Assembly: GCF_014652635.1 (NCBI RefSeq)
Contig: NZ_BMZE01000003.1
Span: forward strand, 372,001-436,000
Direction of reading: 5' to 3'
Length of the DNA: 64,000 bases
Origin: Devosia pacifica
GTDB lineage: Bacteria > Pseudomonadota > Alphaproteobacteria > Rhizobiales > Devosiaceae
This document shows, one piece after another, positions 8,084-19,920 of this stretch. Positions within the stretch are counted from its first letter, which is position 1, and the number at the start of each line of letters is the position of its first letter. A program made the position numbers and the translations under genes. The notes beneath the pieces are model-generated. The model had not been told where the DNA came from. It did not search any database and worked only from the letters and a program-made list of their open reading frames with translations.

Positions 8084-9757
8084 TCATGCTGCTTTTGCAG
8101 CGAGTTCACCGGCCAGCGCCTCGCCAATCAACCGCCGTGTCTCCTCAACGCCATAGAGTGCGATGAAGGAGCCGAAACGGGGGCCCTGATCCTGTCCGAG
8201 CAGTACCTGATAAAGAGCCTTGAACCAGTCCCGCAGCGGCTCGAACCCATGTGCCTTGCCAACTTCGAACACGATGTTCTGCAGTGCCTCGGCATCGGTC
8301 GAGCCGGTATGGTCCGCCAGTTGATCCGACAGATCCTGCATCGCTGCGCGCTCTTTGTCGTCGGGCAAACGAAAGCTCTTGGTGGGCTTCACCATGTCGT
8401 TGAAGTAGGCCACGGCATAGCCGGCGAGCCGATCGAGCTCGGGATAGCTCTGCGGCGTCGCGCCATCCACATAGCGTGAGATAAAGCCCCACAACACTGT
8501 CTTGTCTTCGGCATTGGCAGCCGACACCAGATTCAGCAACAGCCCGAAGGTGATCGGCATCGCCGCTTCCGGAGGATTGCCAGTGTGGATGTGGAATACC
8601 GGGTTTTCCAGGCGCTGTTCCGCGCTCTGGCCCTGATAGGCGTTGACGAACTGATAGTAGTCGTCGACAGCGCGCGGAATGACATCGAAATGGAGCCGCT
8701 TGGCCGCACGCGGCTTGCCGAACATGTACTGCGACAGACTCTCCGGGCTGGCATAGGTCAGCCACTCGTTGATGGTCAGGCCGTTGCCCTTGGACTTCGA
8801 GATCTTCTGGCCGTTCTCATCGAGGAACAGCTCATAATTGAAGCCTTCTGGCGGGTTGCCGCCGAGCGCCTTGACGATCCGACCAGCGAGACGCACGGAA
8901 TCGATGAGATCCTTGCCGGCCATTTCGTAATCGACGCCGAGCGCAAACCAGCGCAGCGCCCAGTCAGGTTTCCACTGGCACTTGACCGCACCGCCTGTTA
9001 CCGCGGTTTCGTACTTCTCGCCATCTTCAGGATCGACATAGACAATTGTGCCAGCCGAGACATCGCGCTCGATGACCGGCACCTGAAGAACGTTGCCGTT
9101 GACCTTCGAGATCGGCAGGAACGGCGAGTAGGTCTCGCGGCGCTCCGGGCCGAGGGTCGGAAGCATGATGTCCATGACGGCATCGTAGCATTCCAGCATC
9201 CGCAGCAAGGCTTCGTCGAACCGCCCTGACGAATAGTAGTCCGTCGAAGAGGCAAACTCGTACGAGAACCCGAAACTATCTAGAAACGCCCGCAACTTGG
9301 CGTTGTTGGCCGCCGCGAACGAAGAATATTCGTTCGAAAACGGATCAGGCACCCGCGACAGCGGCTTGCCGAGAAAGCTCGCCATCATCTCCTGATTGGG
9401 GATGTTGGTCGGAACCTTGCGGAAACCGTCCATGTCGTCGGAGAAGGCCAGAAGACGCGTAGGCACCTCGTCGCGGGTCAACAGCCGAAAGGCCGTTCGG
9501 ACCATGCTGGTGCGGGCGACCTCACCGAATGTGCCGATATGCGGCAAGCCGGATGGGCCGTAACCGGTCTCGAACAAGACTTCACGCGCGCCGGTTTTCT
9601 CGAGCCGCGCAACCAACCGTTTTGCTTCTTCGAAGGGCCAGGCACGGGCGGACTGGGCGGCTTCGAAAAATGCCGGATCGAATTGTGGCAACGAGGCGGG
9701 GGACACGGCGAACTTGCCTTTCTTGGCTGAAGTGTTCTGAGCCGGACTGTGTTGCAT
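8084..9757 (-). CDS. lysK: Lysyl-tRNA synthetase, class I
   Basis: A 557-residue class I lysine-tRNA ligase, the archaeal/alphaproteobacterial form unrelated in fold to class II LysS. It charges tRNA-Lys with lysine. The HIGH signature appears as PHIG within [13 protein letters not shown] near residue 70, and the KMSKS signature as KISKSKGN. The C-terminal helical domain is complete. An in-frame GTG two codons upstream (9763) is possible, but ATG at 9757 fits family N-termini. It is divergent from the TerB-like gene, with a 95-base shared intergenic region. Confidence 0.93.
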
Positions 9758-9852
9758 CCCCACACCGTGCCGTCAATGCTCGTACAGTGGCTTGCGCGAG
9801 CCGGCACGCGACCCTAGGTAGGTCGAAACGAAACCATAGCCGCGAGTTCGAC

Positions 9853-15679: not shown

Positions 15680-16924
15680 ATGGCATGGATTGTTCCCAAA
15701 GAGATTGCGGCGCCGCCGCTCAGCATTGACCCGCAGCGTCTGGCTGCGCTTGAAGCGCTCGATATTATGGACACCCCGCCGGAACCTGAATTCGATCAGG
15801 TTACTGCGCTGCTCAAGATGATTTTCGACGTCGAGGTAGCGTTCGTTTCGATGATCGATGCGCACCGCGTCTGGTACAAATCGATCGATGGGGCGAGTGT
15901 TTCCGAGGCAGCCCTTGACGGAACGTTCTGCAGGGCGACCCTCGAGAGCGATGCCCCGGTGATTGTGCCGGATGTCGAGAAGGACTCCCGGTTCGAATGG
16001 TCCGAGAGTGCAGCAAAGGCTACCGACTTTCGATTTTATGCGGGCGTGCCCGTGAGGAGCGACGACGGACATATCGTCGGGACCCTGTGTGCGCTCGATA
16101 CACAGCCACGTGCGTTCAGTGAGCGCGACCTAGACGTGCTGATACAGCTTTCGGGGCTCTTGACGCGCATCCTGCACCTCCGTCAGTTCGCGACGACCGA
16201 TGCTCTTACCGGAGCGCTAAATCGGCGCGCCTTTCGTGAAGATGCAGTCAAGCAGATCGCTTTGGCGCGTCGCCACCGCCAGCCTCTGAGCTGCGTTTCG
16301 ATCGATCTCGACCACTTCAAGACCATCAACGACACCTATGGCCACGCAGCAGGCGATCACGTTCTGGCTGGCACTGCCTCCTGTCTCAAGGCGGGCTTGA
16401 GGGAAACCGATCTGCTGGCGCGGATGGGTGGTGAGGAGTTTGTGGCGCTCCTTCCGCAGACCGATTCCTCGACAGCGCTCGAGGTGGCCAACAGGCTGCG
16501 CACGAGCATTGCCCGGCTTGGCTTTCCCGGCAGCCGTCCGCCCATTGCAGTTACGGCATCGTTCGGCACGGCGGGTTTAAGCGATGGCGAGGATCTCGAT
16601 GGACTGCTCATGCGGGTCGATCAGGCGCTTTACGAAGCCAAACGCACCGGACGCAACCGGGCCTGCATTGCAGCTAACCCTGGCAACGCCAACCAGGTTC
16701 GGCGCCGCGTTCTCAAAGCTGCAACCATCGTCCTCGACAATGGGCGCTCGACGCTGGACTGCACGGTACGGCGCCTCTGGGATGGCGGTGCGGAACTGAC
16801 GTTGCCGCTGCCAACCAGCGTTCCGGATAGTTTTCGGCTGGTCTTCAAGTCGAGCGATGAGAGCTATCCTTGCAGATTGACGGCGCGCTCCGCCGGAGCG
16901 ATCGAAGCGACATTTGTCAGCTGA
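15680..16924 (+). CDS. Diguanylate cyclase: GAF - GGDEF - degenerate PilZ-like domain
   Basis: A 414-residue soluble protein. Residues about 25-160 form a GAF sensor of the FRAT-associated type (LDGTFCRATLES, FYAGVPV, GTLCALD). Residues 165-330 form a GGDEF domain with active-site GGEEF at 250-254 and an intact inhibitory site RETD at 241-244, five residues before it, so it should make cyclic di-GMP with product inhibition. Residues about 340-414 resemble an alphaproteobacterial PilZ domain (RRRVLKA, CTVRRLWDGGAEL, FRLVF), but the binding motif [D/N]xSxxG reads RLWDGG, so ligand binding is doubtful. It converges on the XagB-like gene six bases away. Confidence 0.85.
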   Translation: MAWIVPKEIAAPPLSIDPQRLAALEALDIMDTPPEPEFDQVTALLKMIFDVEVAFVSMIDAHRVWYKSIDGASVSEAALDGTFCRATLESDAPVIVPDVEKDSRFEWSESAAKATDFRFYAGVPVRSDDGHIVGTLCALDTQPRAFSERDLDVLIQLSGLLTRILHLRQFATTDALTGALNRRAFREDAVKQIALARRHRQPLSCVSIDLDHFKTINDTYGHAAGDHVLAGTASCLKAGLRETDLLARMGGEEFVALLPQTDSSTALEVANRLRTSIARLGFPGSRPPIAVTASFGTAGLSDGEDLDGLLMRVDQALYEAKRTGRNRACIAANPGNANQVRRRVLKAATIVLDNGRSTLDCTVRRLWDGGAELTLPLPTSVPDSFRLVFKSSDESYPCRLTARSAGAIEATFVS

Positions 16925-16930
16925 GTTGTC

Positions 16931-18619
16931 TTAAAAACCCTCGGCTGGGGTGACGCCGCTCAAGGCTCCGTCTCTGGTCGATACCGACGAGACGGGGGTG
17001 TGGTCCGACTTTGCCCAGTGGAATGGGTCAAAAAGCAATTCGCCCAGTGCGCGCAGAGTGGCCAGCGCCAGCAACAACCAGTAAAGCGGCAACGTCAATT
17101 GTACCCATAAAAGGCTGAAGCGCCGCAATCGCGAGAGCCCGGTAAACTGCGCGACGACGGCTGCGACATTGCCGAGTACGAAGAGCACGAAATAGCCCAC
17201 CGCCCACAGCCATGCACTCGGCGAGACCAATGGCATATCGAGTGCGAGGCGCAGCACTGCCGTGCTGAAAAAGAAGACGTGCAGGATGGGTGCCAAGATC
17301 ATGCCGAGCACAACAAGTTCGAAGAACAAGAAGCTACGCCAACCGAGATCACGCAGCAGAGCGCGCGGGCGCCGGTTGTGAACGATGAACGTCAGCATCC
17401 AGCCCTTGATCCAGCGTCCGCGCTGCGCCATCCACCCTTCGAGATCCGATGGAGCCGCTTCGAGCGTTCTGGTGATCAGGGTTTCGACGCGCATACCCTT
17501 GCGCGCCATACGAACCCCAAGATCGGCATCTTCGGTGACATTGAAGGCGTCCCAGCCGCCGATCTCGATTAGGCTCGAAACGCGGAAATGGTTCGACGTT
17601 CCGCCCAGCGGCACCGGCACACGCCAGCGCGCATGCGCCGGAAGGACGATGCCGAAGAGGGCTGCGTATTCGCCGGCAAACATCGCCGTCAGCCAATTGT
17701 CCTCGCCATTGTCGATCACAAGTTCGGCCTGGAGGCAGGCCAATTGCGGGTTGTCGCGAAACCGCAGCGCCGCGCGCCACAACTGATCAGATTGCGGACG
17801 ATCCTCGGCATCAAAGACAACCAGATGCTCGCCAGTGACGAACGGCAGCGCGTAATTCATCGCCTTGGGCTTGGTGCGCGGCAAAGAATCCGGCACCACG
17901 ATGAGCTCGAAACGCGGATCACGCAGGTAGGGCCGTACAGCCGCGATGGTCTCGGCAGAAGCCGACTCAACGAGAAACTTCACCTCGAGCTTTTCGGGCG
18001 GGTACTCCAGCCGAGAGATTGCGGAATAGAGCTGCGGGATCATCGAAGCCTCGTCCCGCAAGGGTAGCAGCACGCTGTAGCGCGGCAGCTCCGCGGCGTC
18101 CGGGCAGCGCCCGGCGGCGGCTTCGGCCTTGGGAACCTGTTGGAGGGCGAAAAGCCTGATAGCGGCGGGAGCGGCGACAATCATTAAGGCGACACCGCCG
18201 AGCAGCGGCTGCGAGACGAATGGGGCGAACGAGACGCCAAAGATCAGCGCCACCAGGAACACTGCGAACGACCATCGCACGAGGCCGCTCAATTCGAGAT
18301 GCGCGCTGGCGTGCGGCCATTTTCGCGCGAGACGTTGCCGCGCCTCAAGCGTCAGCCTGCTTGCCGCCTGCTCAGCCATCGCCTCGCGCAGCTGGGCCGG
18401 CGGCATGATGCAAAAACGGTCCTTGAGGTATCCGGCGCCAGCCTCGACGCGCTTGCGCAAATTTAGCAATGTCTCGAAGTCGGGGGCGCAGACGTGAAAC
18501 GTTCCGTCGGCCACATTGACGCGAAGCGCGGCACGGCGACCCAAATCCTCCAGATAGACGTGGTCGACCCCGCACGCAACGATGGCGGCACCCGCGCCAG
18601 AAAGCTCATGCCTACCCAT
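16931..18619 (-). CDS. XagB-like processive GT2 glycosyltransferase, main reading frame (N-terminus in another frame)
   Basis: This 562-residue frame holds a family 2 glycosyltransferase with membrane segments at about 112-160 and several from 425 on. Motifs are DAED at 270-273, TEDAD at 362-366 and QRGRW at 399-403, the D,D,D,QxxRW set of processive cellulose synthase-like enzymes; the GspE-N-like N-terminus and this order match XagB, an exopolysaccharide synthase. Residues before about 17 are not natural: homology to the N-terminal domain continues upstream in another frame, joined at a GGGG run at 18568-18571. Adding one base would give one 619-residue protein starting at 18789. A real internal start at 18619 (ATG) lacks a clear Shine-Dalgarno. 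Confidence 0.75.
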   Translation of the reverse strand: MGRHELSGAGAAIVACGVDHVYLEDLGRRAALRVNVADGTFHVCAPDFETLLNLRKRVEAGAGYLKDRFCIMPPAQLREAMAEQAASRLTLEARQRLARKWPHASAHLELSGLVRWSFAVFLVALIFGVSFAPFVSQPLLGGVALMIVAAPAAIRLFALQQVPKAEAAAGRCPDAAELPRYSVLLPLRDEASMIPQLYSAISRLEYPPEKLEVKFLVESASAETIAAVRPYLRDPRFELIVVPDSLPRTKPKAMNYALPFVTGEHLVVFDAEDRPQSDQLWRAALRFRDNPQLACLQAELVIDNGEDNWLTAMFAGEYAALFGIVLPAHARWRVPVPLGGTSNHFRVSSLIEIGGWDAFNVTEDADLGVRMARKGMRVETLITRTLEAAPSDLEGWMAQRGRWIKGWMLTFIVHNRRPRALLRDLGWRSFLFFELVVLGMILAPILHVFFFSTAVLRLALDMPLVSPSAWLWAVGYFVLFVLGNVAAVVAQFTGLSRLRRFSLLWVQLTLPLYWLLLALATLRALGELLFDPFHWAKSDHTPVSSVSTRDGALSGVTPAEGF

Positions 18620-18789
18620 TCAGCGGCCCGCTCCCAAACAATCTCGGGCGCAAGGCCCCGGCGGTGAATGCAGTACTCAAGCGGGTCGATCTCGAGCAGC
18701 AGCGCCGCCTCGAGGGCGTGACGCGCACCAGCGTCGTCAAGCTCCTCCTCACGAAGAATGACGCGGATCAGATCCAAAGCAGTCGACAT
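18568..18789 (-). pseudogene. N-terminal fragment of the XagB-like gene (frameshifted)
   Basis: Starting at ATG 18789 with a strong GGGGGG Shine-Dalgarno, 74 codons encode the first part of a GspE-N/XagB N-terminal domain (EEELDDAGARHALEAALLL, then the RRGLAPE...AAEWVGMSF turn). At GCG GGG TCG the frame leaves the family; the continuation VDHVYLEDLG is found in the -1 frame. Either the gene carries a one-base deletion, the ribosome slips back on GGG (G-G-G re-pairs exactly one base earlier), or the base call is wrong. Confidence 0.7.
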
Positions 18790-18895
18790 CGTGCCCCCCG
18801 ACCGGTCAGCCGGAACTCTGGGCAGGCCTAGACCTTGACCGGTTCCGGCGCGCCACGGAGCCCCCTCCGTGGCAGCCAGCATAGGCACACTTTAT
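18790..18895 (-). promoter_or_regulatory. Structured 5' leader of the XagB-like gene
   Basis: The minus strand holds a perfect nine-pair hairpin, GCCACGGAG with CTCCGTGGC (18873-18865 and 18860-18852) around four G residues. Downstream, CCGGAAC and GTTCCGG form a second possible stem before the GGGGGG ribosome site. The first hairpin has no U tract on either strand, so it does not look like a terminator. No GEMM cyclic di-GMP riboswitch motif is seen. Confidence 0.45.
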
Positions 18896-18927
18896 CGCAA
18901 TGAGCTGATAATGGTGAAAAAAATCGC

Positions 18928-19920
18928 CTAGTTCGGCTCAAACCGGTGCGGATCGAACTCGTAGTGCGTGGAGCAGAATTCACACGTCACTTCGATTTTT
19001 CCGTCAACGACCATATCGTCACGCTCCTCCTTGGAGAAGCTGTTGGCCAGCATCCCCTCGATCCGCTCGGCTGAGCAGGTGCATCTCTCCTCGATCGTGA
19101 GAGGATCGAAAACCCGTACACCCGTCTCGTGGTAGAGCCTGTAGAGCATGCGTTCCGGTGACAGATCGGGGTCTGCCAGTTCAGAATCCTCAAGAGTCGC
19201 GAGCAGGGTCTTGGCACGTGTCCAATGGTCTGCCTCGACAAAGTCCGGATCAACCATGTCCGGGTTGTCGAAGTCGCCGTCGCCCGGCAGGTCCGGCATG
19301 GTATGGCCGCCATGATCCGGCAGATGCTGGATCAGCACGCCGCCAGCCCGCCACCGCGGTGTCGGGTCCCCACGCTGGCTGAGTTCGCCAACGGCAATCC
19401 GCACCAGGGTCGGGATCTGTTCCGACTGCATGAAGTAAGTGTGGGCGACCTCTTCGAGCGATTCACCCTCCAGCGCAACGATGCCCTGGTAGCGCTCCAT
19501 ATGCTCGCCCTGATCGATGGTCATCGCCAGATGGCCATGCCCAAGCAACTCGCCCGGACTGGTGCGCCCCGCCGCCATTGCGACATCGAGATCGGCCTGC
19601 TCGAAGCGGGCGTAGCCGCGCACACCGTCGGGCGCGTCGAAATCGACGACCAAGAGGTTCACCGGCCCATCGGTCTGTGTCTGCAGAATAAATCGGCCCT
19701 GGAACTTCAAGGAGGAGCCGACCAGCGACGCGAGCACAACCGCCTCGCCCAGCACACGCGCTACGGGCTCGGGATAGGCATGGCGCTTGAGGATGCGATC
19801 GAGCGCATCCCCGAGCCTGATGGCACGCCCACGTGTATCAAGCCCGTCCAGGGTGAACGGGACAACGGCGTCATCGCCGGTTTCGGCTCTGTCGAGGCCA
19901 AGGCTCGGGGTCTCTACCAT
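18928..19920 (-). CDS. hslO: Hsp33 family redox-regulated chaperone
   Basis: A 330-residue cytosolic holdase chaperone that is activated by oxidation and unfolding. The zinc/redox centre is seen as C280-x-C282 and C313-x2-C316 near the C-terminus, the expected CxC...CxxC. The length fits the alphaproteobacterial form. It follows argF by 59 bases on the same strand, after argD, so the order argD-argF-hslO may be an operon, a grouping common in Hyphomicrobiales. Confidence 0.93.
   Translation of the reverse strand: MVETPSLGLDRAETGDDAVVPFTLDGLDTRGRAIRLGDALDRILKRHAYPEPVARVLGEAVVLASLVGSSLKFQGRFILQTQTDGPVNLLVVDFDAPDGVRGYARFEQADLDVAMAAGRTSPGELLGHGHLAMTIDQGEHMERYQGIVALEGESLEEVAHTYFMQSEQIPTLVRIAVGELSQRGDPTPRWRAGGVLIQHLPDHGGHTMPDLPGDGDFDNPDMVDPDFVEADHWTRAKTLLATLEDSELADPDLSPERMLYRLYHETGVRVFDPLTIEERCTCSAERIEGMLANSFSKEERDDMVVDGKIEVTCEFCSTHYEFDPHRFEPN

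Follow-up and report, generated by a model that had tools for sequence, protein, structure and literature searches.

The locus lies in a window of 64,000 nucleotides (the whole stretch of DNA analysed, positions 372001-436000 of contig C3) of the Devosia pacifica genome, which comprises 4.02 Mb in 9 contigs and is 99.98% complete. A front frame and a back frame (Table 1) form the two parts of one glycosyltransferase, which is read in a single frame in relatives. The preliminary description of this DNA had reported such a pair of frames, and we found both where it had placed them, on the minus strand. Among the 74 other genomes of the genus, 65 match the first 73 residues of the front frame (best E value 3.5e-16), and the back frame aligns with relatives from right after the switch of frame to near the C-terminus. 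There is no other match to the gene in the D. pacifica genome, and a scan for promoters and terminators found nothing.

Table 1. Features of the split glycosyltransferase gene and of its surroundings (positions in the window).
Feature	Position	Strand	Content
GAF-GGDEF (diguanylate cyclase) gene	15680..16924	+	convergent; 6 nt separate its end from that of the back frame
Back frame, 562 aa	16931..18619	-	rest of the N-terminal domain, membrane-like hydrophobic stretches (by eye), family 2 glycosyltransferase
Front frame, 108 aa	18463..18789	-	ATG 18789 to stop 18463; start of the N-terminal domain in residues 1-73 (18789-18571)
Most likely frame-switch interval	18553..18586	-	at most 3 bits below the best HMM score
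GGGG, top-scoring switch point	18568..18571	-	sole homopolymer of at least 4 in 18520-18609
Gap between hsp33 and the synthase gene, 138 nt	18790..18927	-	
hsp33	18928..19920	-	conserved upstream neighbour

We mapped the switch by scoring read-through proteins, made codon by codon, against an HMM of 25 relatives; five of the 30 relatives (L008, L017, L020, L024 and L026) were omitted, their start being misassigned or their front out of frame. The score reaches its maximum of 216.5 bits when 18571 or 18568 is the last base read in the front frame, while the front alone scores 73.7 bits and the back alone 133.2 bits, and the best net -1 switch scores 4.3 bits above the best net +2 switch. Since switches from 18586 to 18553 all score within 3 bits, the exact base is not fixed: the break at GGGG proposed at first holds as the best-scoring switch, with a net change of -1, but its place is narrowed to an interval and not to a base. 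A codon-usage scan also puts the switch at 18570; it returned about 55-59 candidates on the contig (843 kb), those elsewhere being taken to be mostly noise from adjacent genes, antisense frames and mobile regions, and it was kept out of the counts. Of 36-base windows drawn at random from the contig, 22% contain a run of at least 4 equal bases; a switch that falls on GGGG therefore says little for homopolymer slippage. Upstream of the ATG that opens the front frame lies a G-run, TCGGGGGGCACG, a plausible ribosome site but not the canonical AGGAGG; the site had been called strong, and of this its plausibility stands.

We then consider what the gene would encode. Firstly, the back frame matches PF13641 with 68.5 bits, above the cut-off of 27, and carries DAED, TED and QRGRW, which correspond to the D(x)D-type, TED and QxxRW signatures; it thus has both the domain and the signatures of a processive family 2 glycosyltransferase (BcsA/PgaC-like). 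Among proteins of solved structure, cellulose synthases give the best matches by sequence, and other glycosyltransferases come next. The cut-offs of the named synthase families (PgaC, cellulose synthase) were not reached among the matches listed, the D. geojensis protein scoring 56.5 bits where PgaC_IcaA asks for 422.3, and the same families were weakly matched in the 8 relatives scanned. The product is probably an exopolysaccharide synthase, a membrane family 2 glycosyltransferase. Secondly, Pfam gives no match to the front piece, nor a convincing one to the corresponding region of 8 intact relatives. We turned to a structural model of the N-terminal domain of D. geojensis (pLDDT 87.3), for which the Foldseek hits of ranks 1-18 are all N-terminal domains of GspE, PilB or MshE, with TM mostly about 0.5 and E values of 3.6e-4 for the best and 1.9e-3 to 0.32 for the others. 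The model superposes on MshE (5htl_B) with Z 8.7 and rmsd 3.3 over 119 aligned residues; a Z near 8 can be common, but unrelated rows begin only at 3.6. The model thus predicts a GspE-N/MshEN-type fold for the N-terminal domain. Thirdly, the MshEN receptor of c-di-GMP has two copies of a 24-residue RLGxx... motif, according to the part of the source available (PMC5013675), and strict, partial and relaxed patterns of these motifs were found in none of the first 200 residues of 30 relatives, of which 25 are a fair test since 5 fronts are faulty. Control of the synthase by a partner or by a changed ligand would be a guess by analogy with E. coli NfrB.

We surveyed 75 genomes of the genus, D. pacifica (G000) included, and took an E value of 1e-20 or better as a match. 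The synthase gene is matched in 72 of them; there is no match in G086, in G098 (91% complete) and in G105 (2.0 Mb only). By our own tally, 11 of these 72 copies are broken: 6 carry frame breaks (G000 near residue 73, G006 near residue 45, G088, G019, G082 and G025), 1 has lost about 270 codons in a large deletion (G026) and 4 have insertions at one codon (G004, G007, G015 and G048). In a further 58 of the 75 genomes the copy is apparently whole, again by our own tally and judged mostly by open-frame length, a measure by which G006 (612 aa) had passed as whole despite its front break; G038, with an odd front part but a single frame, was counted among them. Three more copies are partial and were not counted as broken, two of them probably at contig ends (G037 and G099) and one running into N (G039). 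A fusion in G039, suggested by a frame of 3,920 aa, was rejected, the stretch beyond the gene being N, and this copy was left out of the broken count for that reason.

Two control genes set the scale of this breakage, a 559-aa gene at 8084-9763 of the window and a 1042-aa RND pump gene. In genomes at least 98% complete, the synthase gene is broken in 7 of 57, versus 0 of 58 for the 559-aa control and 1 of 48 for the 1042-aa control. Over the whole survey, the 559-aa control is in pieces in 4 of the 75 genomes (G025, G082, G038 and G097), a count that does not include partial copies (G037 and G040), nine copies that carry a stop yet keep 538 aa or more open, and G083, which is unmatched. The 1042-aa control, matched in 58 of the 75 genomes at E 1e-100 with some distant paralogues among them, is fragmented in G038 and G010; in G025 it has a stop, but 997 aa are open. 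G025 and G082, in which the 559-aa control is in pieces as well, are thus unreliable as witnesses. Repeated breakage of the synthase gene in good genomes argues that the gene is dispensable and makes a real loss in D. pacifica credible; the gene appears to be dispensable in the genus, being missing or broken by unrelated events in several species.

As the preliminary description had called for, the locus was compared with that of relatives, and these were found to have single-frame orthologues that do not share the break. Among loci L002-L030, which are best matches and hence biased to whole copies, 28 of 29 have a single frame, and the remaining one (L017, from G006) has a break of its own near residue 45. 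This break of G006 is independent and occurs in a genome that is 99% complete. The D. pacifica break is shared by no relative examined and, as expected of a frameshift pseudogene, it is absent from intact orthologues. A DNA search of the genus gave about 71% at most for the gene among the matches listed, with no close match there, and plasmid records gave distant relatives only, none covering 80%.

Around the gene, argF and hsp33 are neighbours in most genomes searched. A match at the GGDEF level occurs near the gene at 7 of 50 loci, some of which come from the same genome and many of which have flanks of 1.5 kb only; the diguanylate cyclase neighbour is not consistently conserved across the loci of relatives. 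By our own count, 27 of the 75 genomes have the autoinducer synthase gene luxI (PF00765) immediately upstream of the synthase gene (for example L076:143-817), suggesting quorum control of the latter. PF00765 has no match in the D. pacifica genome. In G086, luxI follows hsp33, yet this genome is without a synthase match. Compared by eye, the absence of luxI and breakage of the synthase gene have no clear link, broken copies occurring both with luxI (G004 and G015) and without it. The titles and abstract openings examined in the literature on Devosia and quorum sensing do not mention the gene.

The four insertions form a group of their own. IS1595-family elements or their ends lie at the same synthase codon at L076 (G015), L077 (G004), L078/L079 (G007) and L080 (G048), and a PF12762 transposase is present in the first three. 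In three of the four genomes the insert is flanked by repeated words of 9-10 bases, which we read as putative 8-bp target duplications (GGACTATC, GAATTATC and CGATTATC). Two of the elements are oppositely oriented, so that at least some of the insertions are independent, and the codon is a candidate insertion hotspot. In all, 7 of the 75 genomes carry the element end. In G007 (C1 3576708-3601482), the gene halves are separated by some 16-20 kb that appear to be inverted, with a copy of the element ends on either side.

We consider that the D. pacifica locus is probably the result of a recent inactivation of a membrane family 2 glycosyltransferase gene by a small indel (net -1) about 73 codons in, most likely within GGGG. 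Translation begun at 18789 would pass out of the family frame within the N-terminal GspE-N/MshE-like domain and end at 18463, and the product would be a 108-aa fragment without the catalytic domain. We infer a genuine base change in the organism and the absence of a full-length protein. An inactivating indel was among the readings first put forward for the locus, and it is now the best supported of them, with 11 of 72 copies broken in the genus and a clean sample of the assembly. Some observations count against inactivation: the protein is otherwise almost undamaged, as it would be after an assembly error or in a gene in use, and some of the broken copies are in poor assemblies (G025 and G082, which break the 559-aa control, and G019, which is 93% complete).

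The state of the rest of the protein was measured on residues invariant over 23 relatives (L003 being omitted besides the five omitted from the HMM). The back piece keeps 127 of 133 such residues and the front piece 8 of 9, and for the intact D. geojensis protein the figure is 136 of 142; in a leave-one-out comparison the 23 others keep 95 to 100%, which places the D. pacifica and D. geojensis proteins at the low end. With so little further decay, the break is either recent or an artefact, unless the gene product remains in use. That the loss is recent, as the preliminary description had argued from the intact catalytic frame, is supported, the share of invariant residues kept by the back piece being about that of the intact D. 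geojensis protein.

An error of sequencing or assembly, in which an intact gene of the organism was misrecorded at or near GGGG, would account for the scarcity of decay and for a best switch point on a homopolymer, and some of the breaks in the genus do occur in assemblies that break the control too (G025 and G082). We examined the quality of the assembly by searching 1.64 Mb of the D. pacifica genome with 659 proteins, which had been predicted on 800 kb of sequence from two relatives; few loci were gained from a further 800 kb of contig C1. Across 143 distinct conserved loci (145,871 bases), the synthase gene is the sole accepted split, in a homology survey that can miss breaks near gene ends. 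These loci hold 182 homopolymer runs of at least 5, and the 6 such runs in the synthase gene include none at the switch. Other candidates were set aside: a second split, with stops, at C3 466,869-469,462, whose query was judged from the appearance of its sequence to be an antisense frame, and internal stops at 409,559-411,475 and 440,503-441,390, which lie near the query start, the query probably beginning, by their position, upstream of the true start. Runs of N, of 10 to 90 bases, occur at five places in the assembly and suggest short-read scaffolds, though they may instead be masked stretches. Short-read indels at a run of four are rare. The sole accepted split, the absence of longer runs at the switch, the look of short-read scaffolding and the completeness of the genome (99.98%) all speak against an error; the sequencing error raised at first is thereby weakened to an unlikely reading, and it remains the main rival of inactivation.

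Recoding and split translation are both unlikely. We judge it improbable that the locus is a two-protein arrangement, in which the back frame would be started on its own, at ATG 18619, at another internal start or by coupling, and would give an active synthase without a complete N-terminal domain. The whole catalytic part is in the back frame with its motifs intact, and ATG 18619 has GGGAG 11 nt upstream; that spacing is long, however, the residues from 18619 to the switch look unlike the family by eye, and the loci of relatives match from family residue 1, the equivalent of 18789, in 29 of 29 cases. A start of relatives at the equivalent of 18619, which the preliminary description had named as evidence against a split gene, was thus looked for at these loci and found at none. 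More doubtful again is a species-specific switch by recoding or split start, in which one mRNA would give the front fragment together with a synthase with or without its N-terminal domain, through slippage on GGGG or internal initiation, and polymer synthesis would escape its normal control, with no luxI beside the gene, unlike in many relatives.

In E. coli, according to the part of the report available, tetramers of this kind are barely shifty without a stimulator, and G_GG.G is above background with or without one, which its authors credit to low-level initiation and not to shifting (PMC4066793). The ribosomal -1 slip put forward at first is therefore a weak reading and a programmed frameshift at GCG GGG, yielding short and full-length proteins, highly improbable: after a step of one base backwards, a tRNA on GGG could again pair with GGG, and the net -1 direction fits, but the site is only a G_GG.G tetramer and no recognised slippery motif, the 87 nt downstream fold more weakly than their shuffles (z +1.94, with 198 of 200 shuffles at least as stable in pseudoknot-free folding), no Shine-Dalgarno-like stimulator is seen upstream by eye, and the site is unconserved and the break unshared, 28 of 29 loci of relatives having a single frame and the remaining one being broken elsewhere. 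Such a slip, if real, would make an unusual case of frameshifting on a G-run in a cellular polysaccharide synthase.

Taken as a recent inactivation, the single case matters little: the gene whose frame is broken encodes a polymer synthase with which the genus can apparently dispense. Across the genus, the loss or breakage by unrelated events of a gene that is often beside luxI suggests a lost need for its product, or selection against it.

The closest comparison is with the intact Devosia orthologues, which belong to the same family and occupy the same place after argF and hsp33. The D. geojensis orthologue (NZ_JZEX01000060.1, L031; 636 aa) is 57-58% identical in the back piece; it is encoded in one reading frame and has luxI directly upstream, which is absent in D. 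pacifica. The name XagB-like, taken from the preliminary description, fits loosely: Xanthomonas XagB, of the xagABCD operon, is described in the available part of its report as a putative glycosyltransferase for extracellular polysaccharide (PMC3609779), and the resemblance in this putative role comes from that description. The xag operon itself was not seen around the D. pacifica gene, whose neighbours are hsp33 and the convergent GGDEF gene, so that this part of the comparison does not hold. E. coli NfrB, as far as its source was available, joins a GT2 to a true MshEN domain and is activated by c-di-GMP (PMC8669469). The Devosia protein is likewise a GT2 with processive signatures joined to a predicted GspE-N/MshEN-type fold, with a diguanylate cyclase gene next door in D. 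pacifica, but the domain is C-terminal in NfrB and N-terminal in the Devosia protein, and c-di-GMP motifs occur in 0 of 30 fronts of relatives. Finally, in the accessible part of their report, the authors of GeneTack attribute unclustered frameshifted genes to indel mutation or sequencing error (PMC3711429); the D. pacifica gene is like these singletons, with no notable difference, in having a frame break without recoding signals that relatives do not share.
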